This document shows, in pieces, positions 36,114-52,785 of a stretch of 64,000 bases of DNA (its first letter is position 1; each line of letters starts with the position of its first letter). The DNA comes from Limobrevibacterium gyesilva (lineage in GTDB: Bacteria > Pseudomonadota > Alphaproteobacteria > Acetobacterales > Acetobacteraceae), in contig NZ_JAPDNT010000005.1 of assembly GCF_025989185.1 (NCBI RefSeq), positions 167,633 through 231,632 of the forward strand. The letters run 5' to 3'. The notes under the pieces were generated by a model. That model made no database searches. It was not told where the DNA came from and saw only the letters and a program-made list of their open reading frames with translations. Position numbers and translations under genes: made by a program.

Positions 36114-38357
36114 ATGGCGTACTATGCTCATAGTGTATCTGGTCGTCCTGAAGGGGAATGGGAGCCTCTCGCCCGCCACCTGGCTGAGGTGGAGGACGGC
36201 GCCCGAAGCCGCGGGCGACGCTTCGGGGCGGAAGCTCTCGCGGCGCTTGCCGGGCGTATACATGACCTTGGCAAATATGGCCCTGACTTCCAGGCGCGGC
36301 TGCGCGACCCGACCAAGCACGCCGATCACTCCACGGCCGGTGCTGTCTGGGCCTTCGAGTACCTGCCCCCGACCTGGGGCCGACTGCTCGCGCATGTCGT
36401 CGCGGGGCACCATGCGGGGCTGAAGGATGATCTGCTTCGCCCTGAAGGCCGCATCGAGACCAAGAGCACCCTGCTGGCCCCAGCCGAGCGCGCGGCCCAG
36501 GCTGACGGCCTCGCGCTGCCGCAGGGCGTCTCCGGTCCTGCCGGTATGGGGTACCTGAAGGGCGAATTCGGGTTCCAGATGGCCTTCCTCACCCGCATGA
36601 TCTTCTCCTGCCTCATTGACGCCGACCGCACCGCCGCCGCCGCCTTCGATACGCGTAGTGGTGGTGTCCAGGAGGTCGACCACCCGTCCATCGCGATGCT
36701 CCAGACAGCGCTGGACGCGTGGATGGCGCGCCGCGCCGTAGCGCCAAGCCGGCTCAATACGCTGCGTGACGACGTGCTGCGCGCAGCCACGGCAAGGGCT
36801 GCCGAGCCCCAGGGCGTCTTCACCTTGACCGTGCCGACCGGCGGCGGCAAGACGCTGACCTCCCTCGCCTTTGCCCTCGCCCATGCGCGGGCGCATGGGC
36901 TGGATCGGGTGGTCGTCGTGATCCCCTTCACCTCGATCATCGAGCAGACGGCCAAAGTCTATCGCGAGGCACTCGGCGCCCTCGGCGGCGCAGTGCTGGA
37001 GCACCACAGCGCTTTCGAGATGGAGAAAGAGGGCACGTGGGCCGAGCAGCGCGTAGGACCCGACCGCCTGAGGCTCGCCATGGAGCGCTGGGACAGCCCC
37101 ATCGTGGTAACGACAGCGGTGCAGTTCTTCGAAAGCCTGTTCTCCGACCGGCCGAGTCGCTGCCGCAAGCTGCACAGCCTGGCGCGCAGCATCGTGGTGG
37201 TGGATGAAGCGCAGACTATGCCCCTGCCGCTACTGCGCCCCTGTGTCGCGGCGCTTAAGGAACTCGCGCGCAACTACGGCAGCTCCGTCGTGCTGTGTAC
37301 CGCGACGCAGCCCGCGCTGGCGGCGCCGGCACCCGACAAGGCGGGTTTTCCCGGTGGCTTCAAGGCACCGCGCGAACTGGCGCCGGATGTGCCTGCGCTG
37401 TTTGCAGCGCTGCGGCGCGTGACGGTGCGGGATATCGGCACGCAGGACGATGCAGCGCTCGCCGCGCGGATCGCTGCAAGCCCGCAGGCGCTCTGCATCG
37501 TCAACCAGCGTGCCCATGCGCGGGCGCTGTTCCAGGCCATTTGCGCGTTGCCCGGGGCGCGGCACCTCTCGACGTGCATGCACAGCGTCCACCGCGCGCG
37601 GGTGTTGGCAAAGATCAGGGCCGACCTGAGGGAAGGCCGCCCATGCCGGGTGATCTCGACCAGTCTGATCGAGGCGGGCGTCGACGTGGATTTCCCCATC
37701 GTGCTGCGCGCCTCTGCCGGACTCGACCAGATTGCGCAGGCGGCCGGGCGCTGCAACCGCGAGTTCAAGCGCAGCCTGGAGGCGAGCGAGGTGCTGGTGT
37801 TCACGGCGGCCGAATACCGCGTGATCAAATCGCTCACTGCCCATGCCGAGACCGGCGCCGAGATGCTGCGGCTGCACACGGATGATCCCTTCGCGCCGCC
37901 CGCGATACGCGCCTTCTTCGATCTGTTGTATTGGAAGAAGGGCAAGTCTGAACTGGACAGGGGTGGCGTGCTGGAAATGTGTGCTGGGAAGGCCGGCGAT
38001 ATGAACTTCCCTTTTGAGAGCATCGCCGCCGCCATGCGCTTCATCGACGATGTGATGGTGCCGGTGATCGTGGCGCAGGAGGAAGCCAGGGTCGGCGAGG
38101 TCGACAGGCTCATCCGCGACCTGCGCTTCGCGAAGGGCGTCGGCGGGATCGCACGAGAGCTTGGGCGCTACACCGTCGGGATCCCGCGCACCGTGCGGAC
38201 GGAGATGATCACTCAAGGCGTGGCCGAAGCCATCCGCCCTAAGGAGTTCGGCGACCAATTCGTGGTGCTGCACAACCTCGACCTCTACAAGCCCGAAACG
38301 GGGCTGGATTGGGACGACATCACTTTCCGCAAGGCCGAGGCGATGGTTCTGGTGTGA
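36114..38357 (+). CDS. cas3: CRISPR-associated helicase/nuclease Cas3 (type I-C)
   Basis: 747 residues. The N-terminal HD nuclease domain has GRIHDLGKYGPDFQ and KHADHSTAGAVW with the metal ligands, and later VAGHHAGLKDD. The SF2 helicase follows: Walker A TVPTGGGKTLTSLAFALAHA, VVVIPFTSIIEQT, DEAD-like box VVVDEAQTMPLPLL, motif III VVLCTATQPAL, and motif VI region LDQIAQAAGRCNRE. It is recruited by Cascade to degrade target DNA. I chose ATG 36114 (MAYYAHSV, the usual Cas3 start); the frame is open to 35997. First gene of the cas cluster, followed by an unusual 382-bp gap. Confidence 0.95.
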   Translation: MAYYAHSVSGRPEGEWEPLARHLAEVEDGARSRGRRFGAEALAALAGRIHDLGKYGPDFQARLRDPTKHADHSTAGAVWAFEYLPPTWGRLLAHVVAGHHAGLKDDLLRPEGRIETKSTLLAPAERAAQADGLALPQGVSGPAGMGYLKGEFGFQMAFLTRMIFSCLIDADRTAAAAFDTRSGGVQEVDHPSIAMLQTALDAWMARRAVAPSRLNTLRDDVLRAATARAAEPQGVFTLTVPTGGGKTLTSLAFALAHARAHGLDRVVVVIPFTSIIEQTAKVYREALGALGGAVLEHHSAFEMEKEGTWAEQRVGPDRLRLAMERWDSPIVVTTAVQFFESLFSDRPSRCRKLHSLARSIVVVDEAQTMPLPLLRPCVAALKELARNYGSSVVLCTATQPALAAPAPDKAGFPGGFKAPRELAPDVPALFAALRRVTVRDIGTQDDAALAARIAASPQALCIVNQRAHARALFQAICALPGARHLSTCMHSVHRARVLAKIRADLREGRPCRVISTSLIEAGVDVDFPIVLRASAGLDQIAQAAGRCNREFKRSLEASEVLVFTAAEYRVIKSLTAHAETGAEMLRLHTDDPFAPPAIRAFFDLLYWKKGKSELDRGGVLEMCAGKAGDMNFPFESIAAAMRFIDDVMVPVIVAQEEARVGEVDRLIRDLRFAKGVGGIARELGRYTVGIPRTVRTEMITQGVAEAIRPKEFGDQFVVLHNLDLYKPETGLDWDDITFRKAEAMVLV

Positions 38358-38366
38358 TTTTACTCA

Positions 38367-38386
38367 TTCGCAGAAGTTGCACTTGA
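38367..38386 (+). promoter_or_regulatory. Predicted Cascade target site of the CRISPR-like RNA (TTC PAM + 17 nt)
   Basis: TTC at 38367-38369 (the usual type I-C PAM) is followed by GCAGAAGTTGCACTTGA (38370-38386). This matches the first 17 nt of the pseudo-spacer at 38549-38565 at 14 positions; mismatches fall at 6, 9 and 12. Positions 6 and 12 are the bases flipped out of the guide-target duplex in Cascade, so they do not count against binding. The site overlaps the -35 box of the promoter at 38383-38412. Confidence 0.7.
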
Positions 38387-38412
38387 CCACGCAAAAACAT
38401 CTCCTGCATATA
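38383..38412 (+). promoter_or_regulatory. Putative promoter in cas3-cas5c gap
   Basis: TTGACC (38383-38388), 18-nt spacer, CATATA (38407-38412), 26 nt after the cas3 stop. It would drive the 61-codon ORF and perhaps cas5c-cas2. Its -35 element lies in the predicted Cascade target site, so Cascade binding would block it. Confidence 0.5.
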
Positions 38413-38443
38413 GGCCGGCGGTTAAACCGATTGGAGACTGGTT

Positions 38444-38629
38444 ATGCGCTCGTCGTTCGACGTCTCGATCGGGTTAACCACGCCCAACGGAATTTGGATT
38501 GGTATCCGCCTGAAGCGCGAGATTCTTACGTTGGTCGCGGATCGAAACGCAGAGGTGGCCCTTGAGGGCGAGAAGATCGACGGAGGGCCTCTTATCCAAA
38601 ACAAGAGGTCCTCCGACGGCACGATATAG
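38444..38629 (+). CDS. Hypothetical 61-residue ORF, possible CreT-type toxin locus
   Basis: ATG 38444 has GGAG seven bases upstream. The peptide begins MRSSFDVSIGLTTPNGIWIG, is beta-rich in character and uses codons rare in this GC-rich genome (TTA, ATA, AGG). No family recognised. It lies downstream of the promoter that the CRISPR-like RNA is predicted to repress, and its 3' part overlaps that RNA. In CreTA systems the repressed transcript is a small toxin; in CreR systems the repressed promoter drives cas genes. The sequence alone cannot say which applies, or whether this ORF is translated. Confidence 0.35.
   Translation: MRSSFDVSIGLTTPNGIWIGIRLKREILTLVADRNAEVALEGEKIDGGPLIQNKRSSDGTI
38499..38527 (+). 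promoter_or_regulatory. Putative promoter of the CRISPR-like RNA
   Basis: TTGGTA (38499-38504), 17-nt spacer, ATTCTT (38522-38527). Initiation about seven bases on would fall at 38534-38536, exactly at the first base of the repeat-derived handle segment, so the RNA could begin with the handle without processing. Confidence 0.4.
38535..38615 (+). ncRNA. CRISPR-like guide RNA (CreA/CreR-type) within cas operon
   Basis: 38536-38548 (CGCGGATCGAAAC) is identical to the last 13 nt of the array repeat and includes the whole 11-nt crRNA 5' handle CGGATCGAAAC. A 32-nt spacer-like stretch follows (38549-38580), close to the array's 33-36 nt spacers. Next is a hairpin with a 13-bp stem (one G-T pair) and 9-nt loop (38581-38615), which could protect or end the RNA. 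The repeat's own 7-bp stem is not kept upstream of the handle. The pseudo-spacer's first 17 nt match a PAM-flanked site 179 bp upstream. Known relatives are the CreA antitoxin RNAs and Cas-regulating CreR RNAs. No transcript data; this is inferred from sequence. Confidence 0.7.
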
Positions 38630-38739
38630 ATGCCCGGCCAGCGGCCGGCGGCTTTGCCCATGGTGCCACGGAAAGAGCATCGCTTTCTTGCCTGCCGACA
38701 ATTTTTGTGACACAACAAAAACAATAACCGTTACGAGTC

Positions 38740-39411
38740 ATGCAGTTGATTCGCTTGAAGGTCTGGGGCCCGCGCGCACTGTTTTCCCGTCCGGAAATGA
38801 AGGTGGAACGCGTCAGCTATGACGTGATCACGCCCTCTGCGGCCCGCGGCATCCTCGAAGCCATCCATTGGAAGCCGCAGATGGTCTGGCGTATCCGGCG
38901 CCTGCTTGTGCTCAATCCGATCCGCTTCGAGTCCCTCCGTCGCAATGAGGTCGGCTCCAAGATCCCGGCCGGGAAGGTCACCGCCGCCATGCGTGCGGGC
39001 TCGACGGAGGGACTTGCGCTGCATGTCGACAAGGACCGGCAGCAGCGCGCCGCGACCCTGCTCAAGGACGTCGCCTACGTCATCGAGGCGCGGATCGAAT
39101 TGACGGCGAAGGGCCGCGCCGATCCGGCGGAATCCGTGCAGAAGCACCTGGAAATGGCGCGACGTCGCGCCGCCAAGGGCCAGTATTTCCACCACCCCTA
39201 TCTCGGCACCCGCGAATTCGCCTGCGACTTCGAATTGCTGGAGGGTGAGCCGCTGCAGCCGCACGAAAGCCTGATGGGGGAGCGTGACCTCGGCTGGATG
39301 GCGCTCGACCTCGATTACGCCGTCGGGATGGAGCCGCAGTTCTTTCGCGCCCGCATGGTCGATGGCGTGATCGAGGTGCCCGCGCCGGGGGATGAAGGCG
39401 TGGTCGCGTGA
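38740..39411 (+). CDS. cas5c: Type I-C Cas5c (Cas5d), pre-crRNA endonuclease and Cascade subunit
   Basis: 223 residues starting MQLIRLKVWGPRALFSRPEM, the Cas5 N-terminal RAMP fold; SYDVITPSAARGILEAIHWK and YFHHPYLGTREFACDFEL are signatures of the I-C form, which replaces Cas6 and cleaves each repeat at the base of its hairpin, leaving an 11-nt handle. No strong Shine-Dalgarno sequence was seen. Its end overlaps the cas8c GTG start by four bases. Confidence 0.95.
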   Translation: MQLIRLKVWGPRALFSRPEMKVERVSYDVITPSAARGILEAIHWKPQMVWRIRRLLVLNPIRFESLRRNEVGSKIPAGKVTAAMRAGSTEGLALHVDKDRQQRAATLLKDVAYVIEARIELTAKGRADPAESVQKHLEMARRRAAKGQYFHHPYLGTREFACDFELLEGEPLQPHESLMGERDLGWMALDLDYAVGMEPQFFRARMVDGVIEVPAPGDEGVVA

Positions 39412-44183: not shown

Positions 44184-44416
44184 GATGCAGTCGGCTGCGG
44201 GTTCCGCGGAACCAGATGCCGGCCTCCGCCAGTGGCCCCGCGCGAACCAGAATCGTCCGGCGTTTTCCCGACCGGTTCGCGAGCGGTCTTTGTCATTGTA
44301 AATCAGACTATTATCTTAGACGTGCTGCACCATTCCTGATGGCGTGGGCGCGGTACGGTCGGTTTCGCGCAAACTGGCCGCTTTCGCCTGCTTTTTCCGT
44401 CGTGTGTGGCGGAGGG
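44184..44416 (+). promoter_or_regulatory. CRISPR leader
   Basis: The 233-bp gap between cas2 and the first repeat; the repeat orientation (handle at the 3' side of each repeat) and cas2 next to it mark this as the leader end. It contains the 14-bp palindrome GGTTCCGCGGAACC (44200-44213), an 8-bp inverted repeat CGCGAACC / GGTTCGCG (44241-44281) and an AT-rich stretch (about 44286-44322) that could hold the array promoter. Confidence 0.8.
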
Positions 44417-47400
44417 GTCGCTCCCCGTGCGGGAGCGCGGATCGAAACATCAATTCCCGCCGCCAGCCCGTCCAGACCTGGAGTCGCTCCCCGTGCGGGA
44501 GCGCGGATCGAAACCAGACGTTTCCGACGCTCACGGTTGCCGCCCCGCCGTCGCTCCCCGTGCGGGAGCGCGGATCGAAACCAGGTTAGCGGACATCTGC
44601 ACTCTCCACTGTGCGGGCCACGTCGCTCCCCGTGCGGGAGCGCGGATCGAAACCAGGTTACCCGCGCCGTGCGCCTGCCCCGACAACGTCGCTCCCCGTG
44701 CGGGAGCGCGGATCGAAACAAGCTGGCGCCGGGCAGCGTGAACATCGACACATCGTCGCTCCCCGTGCGGGAGCGCGGATCGAAACCGCTTCACCACCAC
44801 GTCGAACAACGCCTGGGTCGTCGCTCCCCGTGCGGGAGCGCGGATCGAAACTGATGATGACCGTCCTCTCTCTCTGCGACTACACGTCGCTCCCCGTGCG
44901 GGAGCGCGGATCGAAACTGCTGAGCCGTTGCCGGCTGGGCACGATCTGACTGTCGCTCCCCGTGCGGGAGCGCGGATCGAAACTCCCTCGATCCGGCGGG
45001 GACCATTCCCTCGCCGAGTCGCTCCCCGTGCGGGAGCGCGGATCGAAACAGCGATCGCGTGGCGGCCTCCGCACAGTCCCTCCGCGTCGCTCCCCGTGCG
45101 GGAGCGCGGATCGAAACTGGCCGAGATCGGCCGGCTGAGCGGGGAGGGCTGAGGTCGCTCCCCGTGCGGGAGCGCGGATCGAAACTCGCGCTACGAGTGC
45201 GTCGCGCCGCCCGCTCCGCGCGTCGCTCCCCGTGCGGGAGCGCGGATCGAAACTCTGCCAGTATTCGCGGGGCCGGGGCGGGGGTGCGGGTCGCTCCCCG
45301 TGCGGGAGCGCGGATCGAAACAGCGCGACAACTGCCGGACTATTCGGCGGATCGTGTCGCTCCCCGTGCGGGAGCGCGGATCGAAACGATATCGCGAACA
45401 AGCATCCGCGCCGCCCGGCAGGTCGCTCCCCGTGCGGGAGCGCGGATCGAAACTGTTTGAGATTGCGCGCCAAATCGCGATGCAGGCGTCGCTCCCCGTG
45501 CGGGAGCGCGGATCGAAACAGGTCAGCCGGTTGATGACCTTGGCGAGGTGTTGTCGCTCCCCGTGCGGGAGCGCGGATCGAAACGTTCTGGAGCCGAAGC
45601 AGGCGCTGCCCGTGACCGGTCGCTCCCCGTGCGGGAGCGCGGATCGAAACTATAAACTCATCGATCTGTTCACTGTTGAACAACGTCGCTCCCCGTGCGG
45701 GAGCGCGGATCGAAACACGACCATTTACGGAAAGTTGAGTGTGCATTGAGTCGCTCCCCGTGCGGGAGCGCGGATCGAAACCACGCCCTCGGCCATTTCG
45801 CTACCTCACCCGAACAGTCGCTCCCCGTGCGGGAGCGCGGATCGAAACACGGTGTCATGTAGCGGTGTCGCGCAACCGACATTGGTCGCTCCCCGTGCGG
45901 GAGCGCGGATCGAAACCGTCAGGCCGAGTCCGTCACCATCGAAGGCCGCGCGTCGCTCCCCGTGCGGGAGCGCGGATCGAAACGAGAACTACCTAGGCGA
46001 CATCTACACGACGAACGTCGTCGCTCCCCGTGCGGGAGCGCGGATCGAAACAGGGTGGCCCGGTGACCGGCGGGGCAGCCGCGGCGGTCGCTCCCCGTGC
46101 GGGAGCGCGGATCGAAACGCAATCGTCATTCTGGTTGACTTAGGAAGACGCGCGTCGCTCCCCGTGCGGGAGCGCGGATCGAAACATCGAGGTCGTGTAT
46201 CAGCAGACCGGCCCGACCGGTGTTGTCGCTCCCCGTGCGGGAGCGCGGATCGAAACATCGACGCCCAGGCGGCGCGGCTGTCCAAGGCGGGTCGCTCCCC
46301 GTGCGGGAGCGCGGATCGAAACGAGATCGTTGATCTGCACCAACAGCTCGTCCGCCGTCGCTCCCCGTGCGGGAGCGCGGATCGAAACGATCAATGGCGT
46401 CGCTAGCCCTTGGTTCCTCAGCCAAAAGTCGCTCCCCGTGCGGGAGCGCGGATCGAAACGATCACCCACACGAGTTGCGCGCGCACGCCGAATTTGCGTC
46501 GCTCCCCGTGCGGGAGCGCGGATCGAAACGATCGGCCATCCATCGGCATCGAAGCCGACCGTCGTCGCTCCCCGTGCGGGAGCGCGGATCGAAACATGCG
46601 TGTGTATTGCGAGCGACGCCGCGCTTGGCGTCGCTCCCCGTGCGGGAGCGCGGATCGAAACAGGTCAGCCGGTTGATGACCTTGGCGAGATGTTCGTCGC
46701 TCCCCGTGCGGGAGCGCGGATCGAAACCACTCGGGACGATCAGACACTCGATGAAGTCGATTGTCGCTCCCCGTGCGGGAGCGCGGATCGAAACGACCAC
46801 CGGCGAGCCGAGCGGACGCGGCGCAGACTGGTTGTCGCTCCCCGTGCGGGAGCGCGGATCGAAACGACCACGGCCAGTCCGAAGCTGTCGTGGTCTGGCG
46901 GTCGCTCCCCGTGCGGGAGCGCGGATCGAAACAAGTGACCAGCGACCCGAAACCCACCCACTGGGGTGTCGCTCCCCGTGCGGGAGCGCGGATCGAAACA
47001 GACGAACTTCGCCATCCGCCCCGAGCCGACCGCGTCGCTCCCCGTGCGGGAGCGCGGATCGAAACCGCCATTTGCGACGCGGAAGCGCGCCTGACCCACT
47101 GTCGCTCCCCGTGCGGGAGCGCGGATCGAAACATCGCCAAGCAACGCGATCTCATCGGCGCCAACGTCGCTCCCCGTGCGGGAGCGCGGATCGAAACAGC
47201 AACGCATCGCCGGAGAACCCGTCGACCTCGCGTCGCTCCCCGTGCGGGAGCGCGGATCGAAACTTAGACATGCCGCTTCCTTCGCGTTGCCTTCTCGTCG
47301 CTCCCCGTGCGGGAGCGCGGATCGAAACCCGCAGACCAGGCAGCGAGCGCCATCTGTGCTCGGTCGCTCCCCGTGCGGGAGCGCGGATCGAAACCGGATC

Positions 47401-50400
47401 TCGGGCAACGGCGCCGCCGGCGGTTACGGCGTCGCTCCCCGTGCGGGAGCGCGGATCGAAACCGGGCGGTCGTGTCGCTGCCCGGCACCCAGCCGGAGGT
47501 CGCTCCCCGTGCGGGAGCGCGGATCGAAACAACCTGATCGAGCAGGCGTGGTACAGCGCCTCGCAGGTCGCTCCCCGTGCGGGAGCGCGGATCGAAACTT
47601 TGTGGCCGACGCCAGCGGCCCGGGACTATCGGGGTCGCTCCCCGTGCGGGAGCGCGGATCGAAACTTGCTGGCGCGGACTAATCTGACGACTGCGGCGAG
47701 TCGCTCCCCGTGCGGGAGCGCGGATCGAAACCAGGTGTTGGTGTAGCCGTGGTCAAAAGCTTGTTGTCGCTCCCCGTGCGGGAGCGCGGATCGAAACCTT
47801 ACCAAGGCACGGGGAGTCCTGCCGCGACATTAGTCGCTCCCCGTGCGGGAGCGCGGATCGAAACCCGGCGGCAGGGTGCGCGTCAGAGTCAGGTACAGCG
47901 TCGCTCCCCGTGCGGGAGCGCGGATCGAAACATCGCGGTGGACGGCCAGCCCTACACCGGGGCAAGTCGCTCCCCGTGCGGGAGCGCGGATCGAAACAGC
48001 CAGTTTGGTCTGTGGTGGGCTCTTGGTGTACGTCGCTCCCCGTGCGGGAGCGCGGATCGAAACAGCGATGCGGTCGAGGCCGGCCTTGAAGCTGCTTGTC
48101 GCTCCCCGTGCGGGAGCGCGGATCGAAACCTCGGCCAGCCGGATCGAGGGGCCGCTTACGGTCGTCGCTCCCCGTGCGGGAGCGCGGATCGAAACTCCGG
48201 AACGTCGTTGAGGGCCCAGATAGACGCCGCGTCGCTCCCCGTGCGGGAGCGCGGATCGAAACAGCAATCTCGCTGAGGCCGCGGCCTACGCGCTCAAGTC
48301 GCTCCCCGTGCGGGAGCGCGGATCGAAACCGCGAGCCTTGCCCGCCACACTCGACCCACCTCCGTCGCTCCCCGTGCGGGAGCGCGGATCGAAACTCCCT
48401 GCCCGGCCTGCTCATCGGCACCGGCCTCGTCGCTCCCCGTGCGGGAGCGCGGATCGAAACAGCAAGACGATCCCACATCGCCACCGCAACCGAGGGTCGC
48501 TCCCCGTGCGGGAGCGCGGATCGAAACTCCATGTCGCTCACGCGGCCCGCTCCGCCACCTCGTCGCTCCCCGTGCGGGAGCGCGGATCGAAACCTTGAGT
48601 GTCTGGAGGTGGAAGTAGACGCGGGCGGTCGCTCCCCGTGCGGGAGCGCGGATCGAAACATTGCTCACGTCGCAACCCTGGCGGCGGAAGTCGTCGCTCC
48701 CCGTGCGGGAGCGCGGATCGAAACGGCGCGGACATCTCCCTGTCCGCAACCGGCGACCGTCGCTCCCCGTGCGGGAGCGCGGATCGAAACTTTGTTAGAC
48801 CCCAGCGAAGATGATCTTGTTGACGTCGCTCCCCGTGCGGGAGCGCGGATCGAAACATCAACCAGACCATGCCGGCCTTGGTGGCGCAGGCGTCGCTCCC
48901 CGTGCGGGAGCGCGGATCGAAACTCCTTGCCTGGGCTGCTCATCGGCACCGGCTTGGCGTCGCTCCCCGTGCGGGAGCGCGGATCGAAACTATTTCATGG
49001 ACGACGGCAACCAAGCAGAATGGGGTCGCTCCCCGTGCGGGAGCGCGGATCGAAACCGCCTGAGCAAGAAGCCGCCCCACACCGCGAGGGCGTCGCTCCC
49101 CGTGCGGGAGCGCGGATCGAAACCGTCACTCGGCGGCGCGGAAGTGCCGCTCGTAGGGTCGCTCCCCGTGCGGGAGCGCGGATCGAAACGTTGCGGTCAT
49201 AGTGTGCAAACTCTGCATCCGACGTCGCTCCCCGTGCGGGAGCGCGGATCGAAACAGTCGGACCGTTCCACGCAAAGTGGCAATCGGGGGTCGCTCCCCG
49301 TGCGGGAGCGCGGATCGAAACTGGGCCTTCGAGGGCTTCGCGTCGGATGCGCGCCTGTCGCTCCCCGTGCGGGAGCGCGGATCGAAACCGGCACCTATGT
49401 CACCGGTCATATTGTGCGCAACGTCGCTCCCCGTGCGGGAGCGCGGATCGAAACGGCAAGATCGCGACGATGTGGAATGCGTATCTCGCGTCGCTCCCCG
49501 TGCGGGAGCGCGGATCGAAACTCCGAGCGTGTGATGTCGTGATACCCGCGACTGAGTCGCTCCCCGTGCGGGAGCGCGGATCGAAACCAGCCTATCTGCG
49601 AGAAGTCGTTCCCGTTCGAGCGTCGCTCCCCGTGCGGGAGCGCGGATCGAAACCGCCATGCGCAGGGCTTCGCACGCGCGAATGAGGCGTCGCTCCCCGT
49701 GCGGGAGCGCGGATCGAAACGCGTCGAACGTCGTTCCTGCGCGATTCCACAGCGGTCGCTCCCCGTGCGGGAGCGCGGATCGAAACAAGGCTGGCCAGCG
49801 GGGGGCGCTGTGATGCCGGTTGTCGCTCCCCGTGCGGGAGCGCGGATCGAAACGCGATCTGGCCGCTCTGGATTGTGGTTTCCGGGTGTCGCTCCCCGTG
49901 CGGGAGCGCGGATCGAAACCTTTTCGAGAGTTACGAAATCACCTGCGGGGGGCGTCGCTCCCCGTGCGGGAGCGCGGATCGAAACCGCCTGTGCGCGGCA
50001 CGGTGATGTGATCGCAAGCGTCGCTCCCCGTGCGGGAGCGCGGATCGAAACGCGGTTTACCAGTGGAAGACGTCCGGCGTTCCGGCGGTCGCTCCCCGTG
50101 CGGGAGCGCGGATCGAAACTCCTCATACTCAATCTGGCGAAGGCGGGCGACGTGTCGCTCCCCGTGCGGGAGCGCGGATCGAAACAATTCACCTCTTACA
50201 AAGCTGGCAGGATTTGCTTGTCGCTCCCCGTGCGGGAGCGCGGATCGAAACCAGCATGGGCGTCTGTGCCATTTACATTTTCCTTGTCGCTCCCCGTGCG
50301 GGAGCGCGGATCGAAACGGGGGCTTGCTCCATCAAGGCGATGAGTCGCCGTACGTCGCTCCCCGTGCGGGAGCGCGGATCGAAACAAGCGGAATATGGCG

Positions 50401-51716
50401 GACGCCCTGGCCCACCACGTCGCTCCCCGTGCGGGAGCGCGGATCGAAACCAGTCTTTGATGCCCGTATCCGGCCGCGCCACACGTCGCTCCCCGTGCGG
50501 GAGCGCGGATCGAAACAAGTTCGCGACCCTTGACGCCGTGAACGATATGATGTCGCTCCCCGTGCGGGAGCGCGGATCGAAACGCGATCAGCGTGAGCGA
50601 ATTGATGTCGGTTCCGTTGTCGCTCCCCGTGCGGGAGCGCGGATCGAAACTACCGGTTCCGCCGGCGGGGCTCGGCCGAGGAGATGTCGCTCCCCGTGCG
50701 GGAGCGCGGATCGAAACCCATCGTCCGGCACATGGACGATGGCACCGACGAGTCGCTCCCCGTGCGGGAGCGCGGATCGAAACGTTGAAGCCTTGATCTC
50801 GCGCATGGTCTTGCCAGGTCGCTCCCCGTGCGGGAGCGCGGATCGAAACTAGGCTACCAACGCGACCGCCAGCCGGGCCCGGGCGTCGCTCCCCGTGCGG
50901 GAGCGCGGATCGAAACCTTCCACAACAATTTCGGGGTTTAGGTTGACAGCGCGTCGCTCCCCGTGCGGGAGCGCGGATCGAAACACCAGCGTCGTGACAA
51001 TGGCGGCGCCAACGAGAAGTCGCTCCCCGTGCGGGAGCGCGGATCGAAACGGCAATCGACACAAGCGCCGCCAGAATTTTCGCGTCGCTCCCCGTGCGGG
51101 AGCGCGGATCGAAACATTGGCGTGACGGAGAAAGCCACGGTCGACGGAAGTCGCTCCCCGTGCGGGAGCGCGGATCGAAACTTGGCACCCGCCTGCCGCT
51201 CGCGCCTGACCACCTCGTCGCTCCCCGTGCGGGAGCGCGGATCGAAACTTCCGTTGCCCGCGCCGCCGAGTGCGGGGTTCGGACGTCGCTCCCCGTGCGG
51301 GAGCGCGGATCGAAACTGCCAGCCAGACGAGCGTCATGTAGGCTCGCACGTCGCTCCCCGTGCGGGAGCGCGGATCGAAACAAATCGTGATTTGCAAGCG
51401 CAAGGCTCGCGCCGTTGTCGCTCCCCGTGCGGGAGCGCGGATCGAAACGCGTTCGGCGCCGCGATCCTCGGCCAGAACTACAGTCGCTCCCCGTGCGGGA
51501 GCGCGGATCGAAACGGTTGGATCGTGGCAGGACGGCCGATGTCTGGCGAGTCGCTCCCCGTGCGGGAGCGCGGATCGAAACAGGTCAACGTCTTGCTGCT
51601 GGTTGTGAAGCTGCTGTCGCTCCCCGTGCGGGAGCGCGGATCGAAACGAGGATTTGCCGCTCGTTGATCATCCGAAGGCCGGGCGTCGCTCCCCGTGCGG
51701 GAGCGCGGATCGAAAC
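44417..51716 (+). CRISPR. Type I-C CRISPR array, 110 repeats / 109 spacers
   Basis: 32-bp repeat beginning GTCGCTCCCCGTGC and ending GCGGATCGAAAC. CGCTCCC and GGGAGCG form a 7-bp hairpin with a 5-nt loop, leaving the 11-nt handle CGGATCGAAAC after Cas5c cleavage. I counted 110 repeats; mean spacer length is then 34.7 nt, mostly 33-36 with some 39-40. I saw no base change in any repeat, including the last. All apparent ORFs inside are products of the repeat. Two pairs of near-identical spacers occur (17/34 and 60/68). Confidence 0.98.
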
Positions 51717-51745
51717 CATCCGCAGGGGTTCGGGCAGCACGGCGA

Positions 51746-51831
51746 TGTAAATCGGCGCCACCCGGTAACCCCTGCGATGCCAACCGAATCAATGGCTTAG
51801 CGCGCCGATCGGCGTCGGGACCCCACGCCGA
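51746..51831 (-). repeat. Right copy of 86-bp inverted repeat flanking CRISPR-Cas
   Basis: Inverted relative to 35812-35897. It begins 30 bp after the last CRISPR repeat and ends 22 bp before the LysR gene stop. Translated outward, both copies read a similar ~28-residue string (CKSAPPGNPCDANRINGLAR versus CKSAPSGDPCDLCRINSVAR, then RSASGPHA), so it may be the remnant of a gene or of a transposon end. Family not recognised. Confidence 0.8.
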
Positions 51832-51852
51832 AACACACCAGAAGCTCATATG

Positions 51853-52785
51853 TCACGCCAACCGCGCTCCCGACCACTGGCCGCGAACCACCAAATCTCG
51901 TGCAGCCTCCTCCACGAGTGACACGACTGTCGCTGCCGCCGGGGACAGCGTCGCTTCCGCCGCGTGACACAACACGATGCTGCGATGGCAGCCCCCCTCT
52001 GCAAAGGGCTTCACCCGGACGCGGCCCTGGTTGATATCCATCCGAAGGCAGCCGCCGGGAAGGAGCGAGACGCCAAGTCCCGCCTCGACGCACTGCGTGA
52101 TCAGGGCGATGGCATCGACCTCGTATTTGACGTTCAAGGGCAAGGAGCGTGAACGAAAATGTCCTTCGGCCGCGGCGCGCAAGCCATTGCCGACCGAGGG
52201 CAGGATGAATTCGTGCCTGGATGCCTCGATGAACGAAATATGGATCCCGCGCGCCTTCTCACCCCGTCGGACCGGCTCGACGAAGAGAAGCTCTTCCTCC
52301 AGTAGGGGCTGGCAGAAGAGGCCCGAGGCCGAGCGCGGGCTCGCCATAATCGCGAAGTCCAGCTTGCCGGCGCGGATATTGCCACTGAGCACATGGCTAT
52401 GCTCCTGCTTGAGCTCCAGGCGCACGTCGGGGTAACGCTCGGTCGTTAGTTGCAGCATCGGCAGGGCAAGCACCGTCATCAGGCTGTGCGGCAGGCCGAC
52501 GGTCACCACGCCGGATGGCCGTTCAACCGCCTTGCGCACGTCGAGCCTGGCGCGGTCAAGCTGCTTGAAGATGATCTGGCAATGCTCGTAGAGCCGCGCT
52601 CCCGCCTCCGTCGTTGCGACGCCCTTGGCCGAGCGCTGCAGCAGGGGAGTGCCGAGTTCTTCTTCCAGCGCCTGGATGCTCTTGCTGAGGGCCGGCTGGG
52701 CGACGTTCAGGCTGTGGGCCGCTCTGCTGATGCTCTTGGCCTCAACGATATTGCTGAAATAGCGAAGCTTGCGGAGGTCGATCAT
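51853..52785 (-). CDS. LysR family transcriptional regulator
   Basis: 310 residues. N-terminal winged helix-turn-helix: MIDLRKLRYFSNIVEAKSIS, RAAHSLNVAQPALSKSIQAL, LLQRSAKGVATTEAGARLYE; then the LysR substrate-binding domain (VTVGLPHSLMTVLALPMLQL, CVEAGLGVSLLPGG). Divergent from the catabolic operon beginning at 52970; the gap contains a perfect palindrome with T-N11-A spacing (52815-52837), a likely operator. Confidence 0.92.
   Translation of the reverse strand: MIDLRKLRYFSNIVEAKSISRAAHSLNVAQPALSKSIQALEEELGTPLLQRSAKGVATTEAGARLYEHCQIIFKQLDRARLDVRKAVERPSGVVTVGLPHSLMTVLALPMLQLTTERYPDVRLELKQEHSHVLSGNIRAGKLDFAIMASPRSASGLFCQPLLEEELLFVEPVRRGEKARGIHISFIEASRHEFILPSVGNGLRAAAEGHFRSRSLPLNVKYEVDAIALITQCVEAGLGVSLLPGGCLRMDINQGRVRVKPFAEGGCHRSIVLCHAAEATLSPAAATVVSLVEEAARDLVVRGQWSGARLA

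Follow-up and report, generated by a model that had tools for sequence, protein, structure and literature searches.

In the type I-C CRISPR-Cas locus of Limobrevibacterium gyesilva, the 382-bp gap that separates cas3 (stop, 38357) from cas5c (start, 38740) probably holds a module resembling CreTA, in which a crRNA-like guide is embedded in the gene that it would repress and the encoded peptide is a predicted toxin, a reading based on the nucleotide sequence and its comparison among loci. That the guide and its target form an element produced by selection is near certain. Repression of the surrounding open reading frame (ORF) by Cascade is likely, and a toxin is the most probable role of that ORF, which we predict with somewhat less assurance.

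The gap was analyzed within a window of 64,000 nucleotides (nt); the draft genome comprises 5.37 Mb in 80 contigs. PADLOC and Pfam assign the neighboring genes to a cas3-cas5c-cas8c-cas7c-cas4-cas1-cas2 system, which is accompanied by a type I-C repeat (Table 1). To our knowledge, type I-C systems function without cas6, and cas6 is absent from this locus. The 110 repeats of the array (44417 to 51716) are without a single mismatch, and exact spacer duplicates are absent. The first 20 nt of the array spacers found no exact match elsewhere in the window (outside 44301 to 51900), and at the gathering threshold, Rfam recognized zero families in the 382-bp gap.

Table 1. Features of the type I-C locus and of the cas3-cas5c gap (positions within the window)
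Feature	Position	Strand	Basis or remark
cas3 (type I-C)	36114..38357	+	PADLOC Cas3c, 1.5e-204; stop opens the gap
TTC, type I-C PAM of the target	38367..38369	+	sequence
Target (protospacer-like)	38370..38386	+	14/17 matches to pseudo-spacer; mismatches 6, 9, 12
TTGACC, -35-like hexamer	38383..38388	+	overlapped by target; weak putative promoter
GGAG, Shine-Dalgarno-like	38433..38436	+	7 nt 5' of the ATG of the ORF
61-codon ORF (P0001), predicted toxin	38444..38629	+	17 homologues; structure model
5-bp stem CGCGA/TCGCG, weak	38516..38539	+	before and into handle; fold z -0.29; degenerate repeat stem, uncertain
crRNA handle, 11 nt, CGGATCGAAAC	38538..38548	+	3' end of array repeat; in frame, part of A-D-R-N
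Pseudo-spacer, 32 nt	38549..38580	+	third (wobble) bases of ORF codons at positions 3, 6, 9, 12
13-bp hairpin closing the guide	38581..38615	+	fold z -6.2; 0/200 shuffles as stable; no T run
cas5c	38740..39411	+	PADLOC Cas5c, 2e-68; Pfam; first gene past the gap, heads cas5c-cas8c-cas7c-cas4-cas1-cas2
CRISPR array	44417..51716	+	110 identical repeats, spacers 33-40 nt

A first-pass annotation of the gap had identified positions 38536 to 38548 as the final 13 nt of the array repeat, and comparison with the 110 repeat copies bears this out. This ectopic, repeat-derived handle sits outside the array and within the cas locus. Its 11-nt form occurs 116 times in the genome, comprising the 110 copies in the array, the copy in the gap and five on other contigs, and with these genome-wide copies as the background, only about 3.6e-4 handles are expected per 382 bp. 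The 32-nt pseudo-spacer (38549 to 38580) and the 13-bp hairpin that follows it (38581 to 38615) were also placed correctly, and the hairpin is more stable than all 200 of its shuffled versions. Since it lacks a T run, the hairpin is probably not an intrinsic terminator. The stem preceding the handle is weak (z = -0.29), which makes processing of the guide by Cas5c, and with it a cut at the handle, uncertain.

The same annotation had noted that the first 17 nt of the pseudo-spacer match positions 38370 to 38386, directly after a TTC (38367 to 38369), at 14 of 17 positions, with mismatches at 6, 9, and 12 and a match that fades beyond position 17; all of this was confirmed, the last by eye, with 5 of the remaining 15 positions matching. 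The target ends 151 nt 5' of the handle. Within the seed (positions 1 to 5 and 7 to 11), 9 of 10 positions are paired with this TTC-flanked site, the mismatch at position 9 lying inside the seed. When other positions of the gap served as pretend pseudo-spacers, none had an equally good TTC-flanked partner (fraction, 0.0). The pattern common to guide and target has one match in the genome at zero mismatches, none at one mismatch and four at two mismatches; the target at 38370 to 38386 is the sole match with zero or one mismatch, the guide itself is among the four two-mismatch matches, and a reversed control pattern gives three. A reading of the element as an RNA anti-CRISPR (Racr) was dropped because the pseudo-spacer has a local target.

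The guide had been described as a regulatory RNA with a promoter of its own, a description that overlooked the 61-codon reading frame at 38444 to 38629; the element is embedded in this frame and is not a stand-alone gene. This ORF lies on the same strand as the guide, spans the handle, pseudo-spacer, and hairpin, and stands behind the target with its own translation-initiation signals. Its 17 homologues (10 in a first search, 17 later), which are available as protein sequences alone and without their genomic context, share 40 to 72% identity with it and are either named "hypothetical protein" or unnamed in the protein database. The only four-residue run that is invariant across the 18 aligned sequences is A32-D33-R34-N35, coded here by GCG GAT CGA AAC and therefore largely by the handle. 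It is kept even in P0018, the homologue at 40% identity, which has one residue fewer before ADRN. The hairpin arms code for G47-G48-P49-L50 and for a later KRSSD stretch, both partly conserved among the 18, and all three guide-target mismatches (6, 9, and 12) fall on third codon positions of the ORF.

AlphaFold2 predicts a beta-hairpin for residues 2 to 12 and 18 to 28 of the peptide, with block pLDDT values of 81, 93, and 79, followed by a tail (residues 37 to 61) mostly without order, in which pLDDT falls below 50 at residues 37 to 39 and 41 to 61. The confidently modeled part of the peptide thus stops shortly before the guide, and what remains of the frame may be maintained for the RNA. No Pfam family was matched at an E value of 0.1, no PADLOC family was matched, and the model found no match among solved folds at an E value of 0.001. 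Homologues of the ORF were sought in DNA as well, and none was confirmed in GTDB-220 genome contigs, IMG/VR, or plasmids; sampled genomes (397 and 396 of the family, 346 of the order, and 1 of the same genus) yielded, besides the ORF itself, only the weak hits L032 and L119. The L032 hit was judged by eye (part 1200 to 1900) to be another gene, and L119 has no GAT[TC]GAAAC on its plus strand. Codon 11 (38474 to 38476) is TTA, which is used 0 times in the 2,558 codons of the seven cas genes, and the leucine it encodes, L11, is invariant in the 18 aligned sequences.

For comparison, type I-C loci (designated by L-numbers) were gathered through Cas5c. Matches to Cas5c were present in 28 of 397 genomes of the family and in 4 of 100 genomes of relatives (overlapping sets that include L. 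gyesilva), and the best 80 of at least 588 confirmed relatives were kept from a scan of genome contigs. From the 110 sequences examined, 101 gaps were cut out, nine loci being skipped because no cas3 was matched upstream; L001, L031, and L032 were left out of this step. Removal of six copies (L019, L030, L033, L034, L035, and L099, the last a copy of L004) left 95 distinct gaps. Fifty of these are shorter than 150 nt and 44 range from 150 to 2,000 nt; one exceeds 2,000 nt and belongs to neither class. Handle variants, from a list drawn up post hoc after the gap sequences had been seen, were present in 30 of 44 long gaps and in 0 of the 50 short ones; under equal base use, chance would place 0.11 handles in the long gaps, which total 19,607 bp. 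Among the handle-bearing gaps that were compared (those up to 700 nt, in pairs not too unequal in length), none is close to being a copy of another, the highest loose identity being 63%.

In each handle-bearing gap, the 17 nt after the handle were compared with TTC-flanked sites on both strands of that gap and of the 60 nt flanking it at either end, and the best partner was ranked against those obtained when other positions of the same stretch served as pretend pseudo-spacers; the TTC is thus a requirement of the search. Partners were accepted with at least 8 of 10 seed positions (1 to 5 and 7 to 11) paired and an empirical fraction of at most 0.003. By this standard, 25 of the 30 loci have a TTC-flanked partner in their own gap, and five (L043, L056, L075, L090, and L095) have no convincing one; two further loci, L015 and L078, pair a degenerate handle outside the listed 30 with a strong partner. 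The pairing is specific to the locus: a seed score of at least 9 was reached in 21 of 30 own gaps versus 0 of 870 cross-locus pairings, and a score of at least 8 in 26 of 30 versus 6 of 870.

Mismatches between guide and target are concentrated at two positions. Over positions 1 to 17, the 25 loci have 0, 3, 1, 0, 0, 17, 3, 2, 5, 0, 2, 16, 7, 7, 6, 5, and 10 mismatches, respectively; position 12 is mismatched in 16 of 25 although it lies outside the seed score, and positions 13 to 17 together are mismatched in 35 of 125 cases. In Cascade, every sixth base is flipped out. The accumulation of mismatches at 6 and 12 is as in guides that make Cascade a repressor. The suggestion that a crRNA-like RNA turns Cascade into a local repressor is strongly supported by the comparison, in that 25 of 30 guides have a TTC-flanked partner in their own gap and the mismatches collect at 6 and 12; the RNA itself and the repression are predicted.

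Retention of the handle among related loci that keep the gap, a check proposed with the first-pass annotation, is incomplete: 14 of the 44 long gaps are without a listed handle (two of them, L015 and L078, carrying degenerate ones). Among the six closest Cas5c relatives (L005 to L010; 78 to 83% identity), the module is present only in L009 and missing from L005 to L008 and L010. The absence of a listed handle from 14 long gaps and of the module from five of six closest relatives indicates that the module is not universal but has been acquired and lost.

The modules of other loci share a common layout. Read along the handle, ORF-bearing loci present the target, ORF, handle, pseudo-spacer, and hairpin in this order, and 29 of 30 loci have a hairpin with 7 or more pairs after the handle (a count made without shuffled controls), 22 to 43 nt behind it in 28 and 60 nt behind it in L102; L056 has none. 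In 4 of the 25 modules (L017, L018, L092, and L109), and also in that of L015 with its degenerate handle, the element points away from cas5c, which favors a cassette complete in itself over a device whose sole task is to tune cas5c. The slot contains a small ORF in 16 of the 25 loci, L. gyesilva included, and a PIN-domain gene in L018, with ORFs and their starts chosen by eye; no ORF was picked in the other eight (L002, L009, L017, L051, L060, L065, L089, and L102).

The small ORFs are of several kinds, and the slot seems to hold interchangeable cargo. Eleven (L039, L040, L045, L052, L064, L067, L070, L073, L074, L082, and L094) encode a hydrophobic segment (KD17 of at least 1.6), and those of L024, L026, L092, and L109, along with that of L015 outside the 25, open with an Arg/Lys-rich start, after which strands are predicted at low confidence. 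Homology between these Arg-start peptides and P0001 was not found (hhalign probability, 0.2%). The ORF ends inside the handle in L039, L040, and L045 and runs through it in L024 and L026. Differences at first, second, and third codon positions number 24/16/36 between L073 and L074 and 11/7/16 between L092 and L109, the latter pair encoding 11 of 15 shared residues with different codons, a pattern that suggests selection at the level of the peptide. There is little or no third-position excess in L024/L026 (17/9/16), L073/L094 (26/18/29), and L074/L094 (31/21/34).

Conventional type II toxin-antitoxin genes accompany the guide-like element in some gaps. That of L052 (845 nt) includes HicA (PF07927) and a HicB-like frame, and that of L018 (1,045 nt) includes a PIN-domain (VapC-like) protein; HicA- or HicB-like frames seem, by eye, to be present also in L043 and L089. 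When the membrane peptides were searched against proteins, six were retrieved, all close to single query rows. One of these peptides, from L040 (9736 to 9909) in Azotobacter vinelandii CA, appears in the database only as P0022, a hypothetical protein given a longer start. In L089, the handle and pseudo-spacer occur twice (gap positions 118 and 284), on either side of a stretch of Ns, and this may be an artifact of assembly.

The promoters proposed for the L. gyesilva gap fared poorly. The pair TTGACC/CATATA, whose -35 hexamer the target overlaps, scores 8 of 12, a value equaled by 63 of 200 shuffles, and a promoter scan of 38250 to 38800 found none, either there or at 38499 to 38527, where a separate promoter had been assumed to start the RNA at the handle. 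Beside the target, sigma-70-like pairs scoring at least 9 of 12 occur in 11 of the 25 loci, and in most loci shuffles often do equally well. The clear pairs are those of L070 (11 of 12, with 0 of 200 shuffles as good), L064 (3 of 200), L045 (5), and L052 (7); among the 25 loci scanned, none was found in L089 and L102. In L. gyesilva, a dyad, TTTTTGTGACACAACAAAAA, noted by eye at 38702 to 38721 directly upstream of cas5c, is possibly an operator.

These features are compatible with the following mechanism. The stretch would be transcribed, and the guide RNA would be taken up by Cas5c or Cascade and direct Cascade to the TTC-flanked partial match upstream of the ORF, which would then be repressed. 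The ORF is the presumed repressed gene because it starts 57 nt behind the target. Since pairing fades after about 17 nt, binding would block the promoter without cleavage by Cas3, in the manner of CreA. The peptide, if toxic, would remain silent as long as Cascade works and be released upon the loss or inhibition of Cascade, so we propose that the cell would be addicted to its own CRISPR system. Because guide and ORF share a strand, excision of the guide might add a second layer of control by destroying the toxin message: one transcript could carry both the ORF and the handle, and a cut at the handle would behead the message.

The module would work like CreTA, although membership in that group is not claimed. 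CreTA is documented in haloarchaeal type I-B and Acinetobacter type I-F systems in the passages of PMC8501985 and PMC10097628 on which we draw. Shared with it, as those passages describe it, are an ectopic repeat handle and a PAM-flanked partial match near a small ORF preceded by a Shine-Dalgarno sequence, all within the cas cluster; CreA likewise pairs at positions 1 to 5 and 7 to 11 (PMC8501985), and the Acinetobacter CreTA also occupies a gap, of about 400 bp, adjoining cas3 (PMC10097628). Unlike CreTA, whose earlier examples all surround cas6 according to the same portion of PMC10097628, the L. gyesilva module belongs to a cas6-less type I-C system and has its guide inside the reading frame. 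Also unlike CreTA, the ORF encodes a conserved peptide of 61 codons, toxic by prediction only, and is free of tandem rare codons: it opens CGC TCG TCG TTC, no tandem ATA, AGA, AGG, or CGA follows its start, as it would in the archaeal subtype, and tandem rare codons were thus rejected as its mechanism.

Two other classes are also similar in part. In CrePA, as summarized in the relevant part of a review (PMC12737573), a protein toxin, CreP, typically with a KilA-N domain, is repressed by a crRNA-like CreA; here, too, Cascade with a crRNA-like guide would repress a protein product, but the L. gyesilva peptide is without KilA-N (0 Pfam families) and is a predicted beta-hairpin. CreR, assigned to type I and type V-A in that review, resembles the module in that a crRNA-like RNA partially matches a site close to a promoter of the cas locus (PMC12737573 and PMC13131331, excerpts). 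CreR is generally uncoupled from toxin genes, whereas here a conserved ORF occupies the repressed slot, and unlike CreR, some related modules point away from cas5c. In the literature searched, part of which was represented by excerpts, we found no type I-C case of CreTA or CreR, and the type I-C passages of PMC13131331 concern anti-CRISPRs; an earlier type I-C report may nonetheless exist.

Whether the repressed unit is the cas operon or a toxin had been left as alternatives, and the second is favored by the conserved ORF in the slot, the small ORFs elsewhere, and the inverted modules, with cas regulation less probable. CreR-like autoregulation, in which Cascade would repress the cas5c-cas8c-cas7c promoter and tune Cas levels, the ORF being a leader peptide or by-product, is the strongest competitor, though unlikely. 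The target precedes the cas5c operon, as it does the ORF, on a shared strand (the promoter there is weak); the hairpin without a T run would permit read-through into cas5c; and CreR is reported from types I-B, I-E, and V-A in the part of PMC13131331 cited here. Three loci (L002, L051, and L089) have a guide and a target only 46 to 85 nt from the handle and may be CreR-like. Counting against autoregulation are the conservation of the ORF in 18 sequences, the five modules that point away from cas5c (L017, L018, L092, L109, and L015, the last with the degenerate handle), and the two ORF pairs of other modules that suggest selection on the peptide.

The same two ORF pairs weigh against an RNA toxin of the classical CreT type, in which a short transcript rather than the peptide would be toxic, for example, through sequestration of a rare tRNA, as does the length of the L. 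gyesilva ORF, 61 codons with no tandem rare codons after the start. Such a toxin is improbable here, notwithstanding that characterized CreT act as RNA despite conserved mini-ORFs (passages of PMC8501985 and PMC10097628). At other loci, it has some appeal: L024 and L109 open with runs of Arg codons, and L009, from the same family (Cas5c identity, 78%), has a Shine-Dalgarno-like stretch and the mini-ORF ATG ATA ATA GCG TAG at gap position 151, ahead of a handle at 247. This mini-ORF resembles the rare-isoleucine-codon CreT of Halobacterium hubeiense as described in the portion of PMC8501985 consulted.

Decay of a CRISPR unit or array fragment into a functionless relic would account for the single handle, the weak repeat stem, and the patchy presence in close relatives, but the pseudo-spacer matches the array spacers at 9 of 17 positions at best, and neither a local target nor a conserved ORF is expected of a relic, which renders this origin very improbable. 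Still less credible is that VADRN is encoded by chance in a gene for a small protein and that the target match is a coincidence, for although a conserved ORF would constrain the DNA without any guide function, the handle, TTC-flanked partner, and 6/12 pattern recur across 25 loci with gaps too dissimilar to be near copies, and 0 of 870 cross-locus pairings reach a seed score of 9. A peptide toxin remains the best reading because it best explains why a cassette that comes, goes, and changes orientation should carry a conserved small ORF apparently under Cascade control.

A wider proposal can be advanced only tentatively, at slightly less than even probability: that type I-C systems widely carry a slot for peptide toxins gated by Cascade, and that in the lineage of L. 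gyesilva, the guide has come to lie inside the toxin coding sequence, with positions 6, 9, and 12 on wobble bases and each excised guide costing one message. Type I-C is among the commonest type I systems (PMC7684278, abstract). If the proposal is correct, these systems have addiction modules of their own, hidden between two cas genes, that use diverse small peptides beyond RNA toxins alone, which would help to explain the resistance of type I-C loci to loss and might allow anti-CRISPR proteins to be sensed. A guide RNA inside the reading frame of the gene that it represses would also be an unusual case of dual coding. The 25 loci supply a set of guide/target pairs with which to test the pairing that Cascade needs to repress without cutting.
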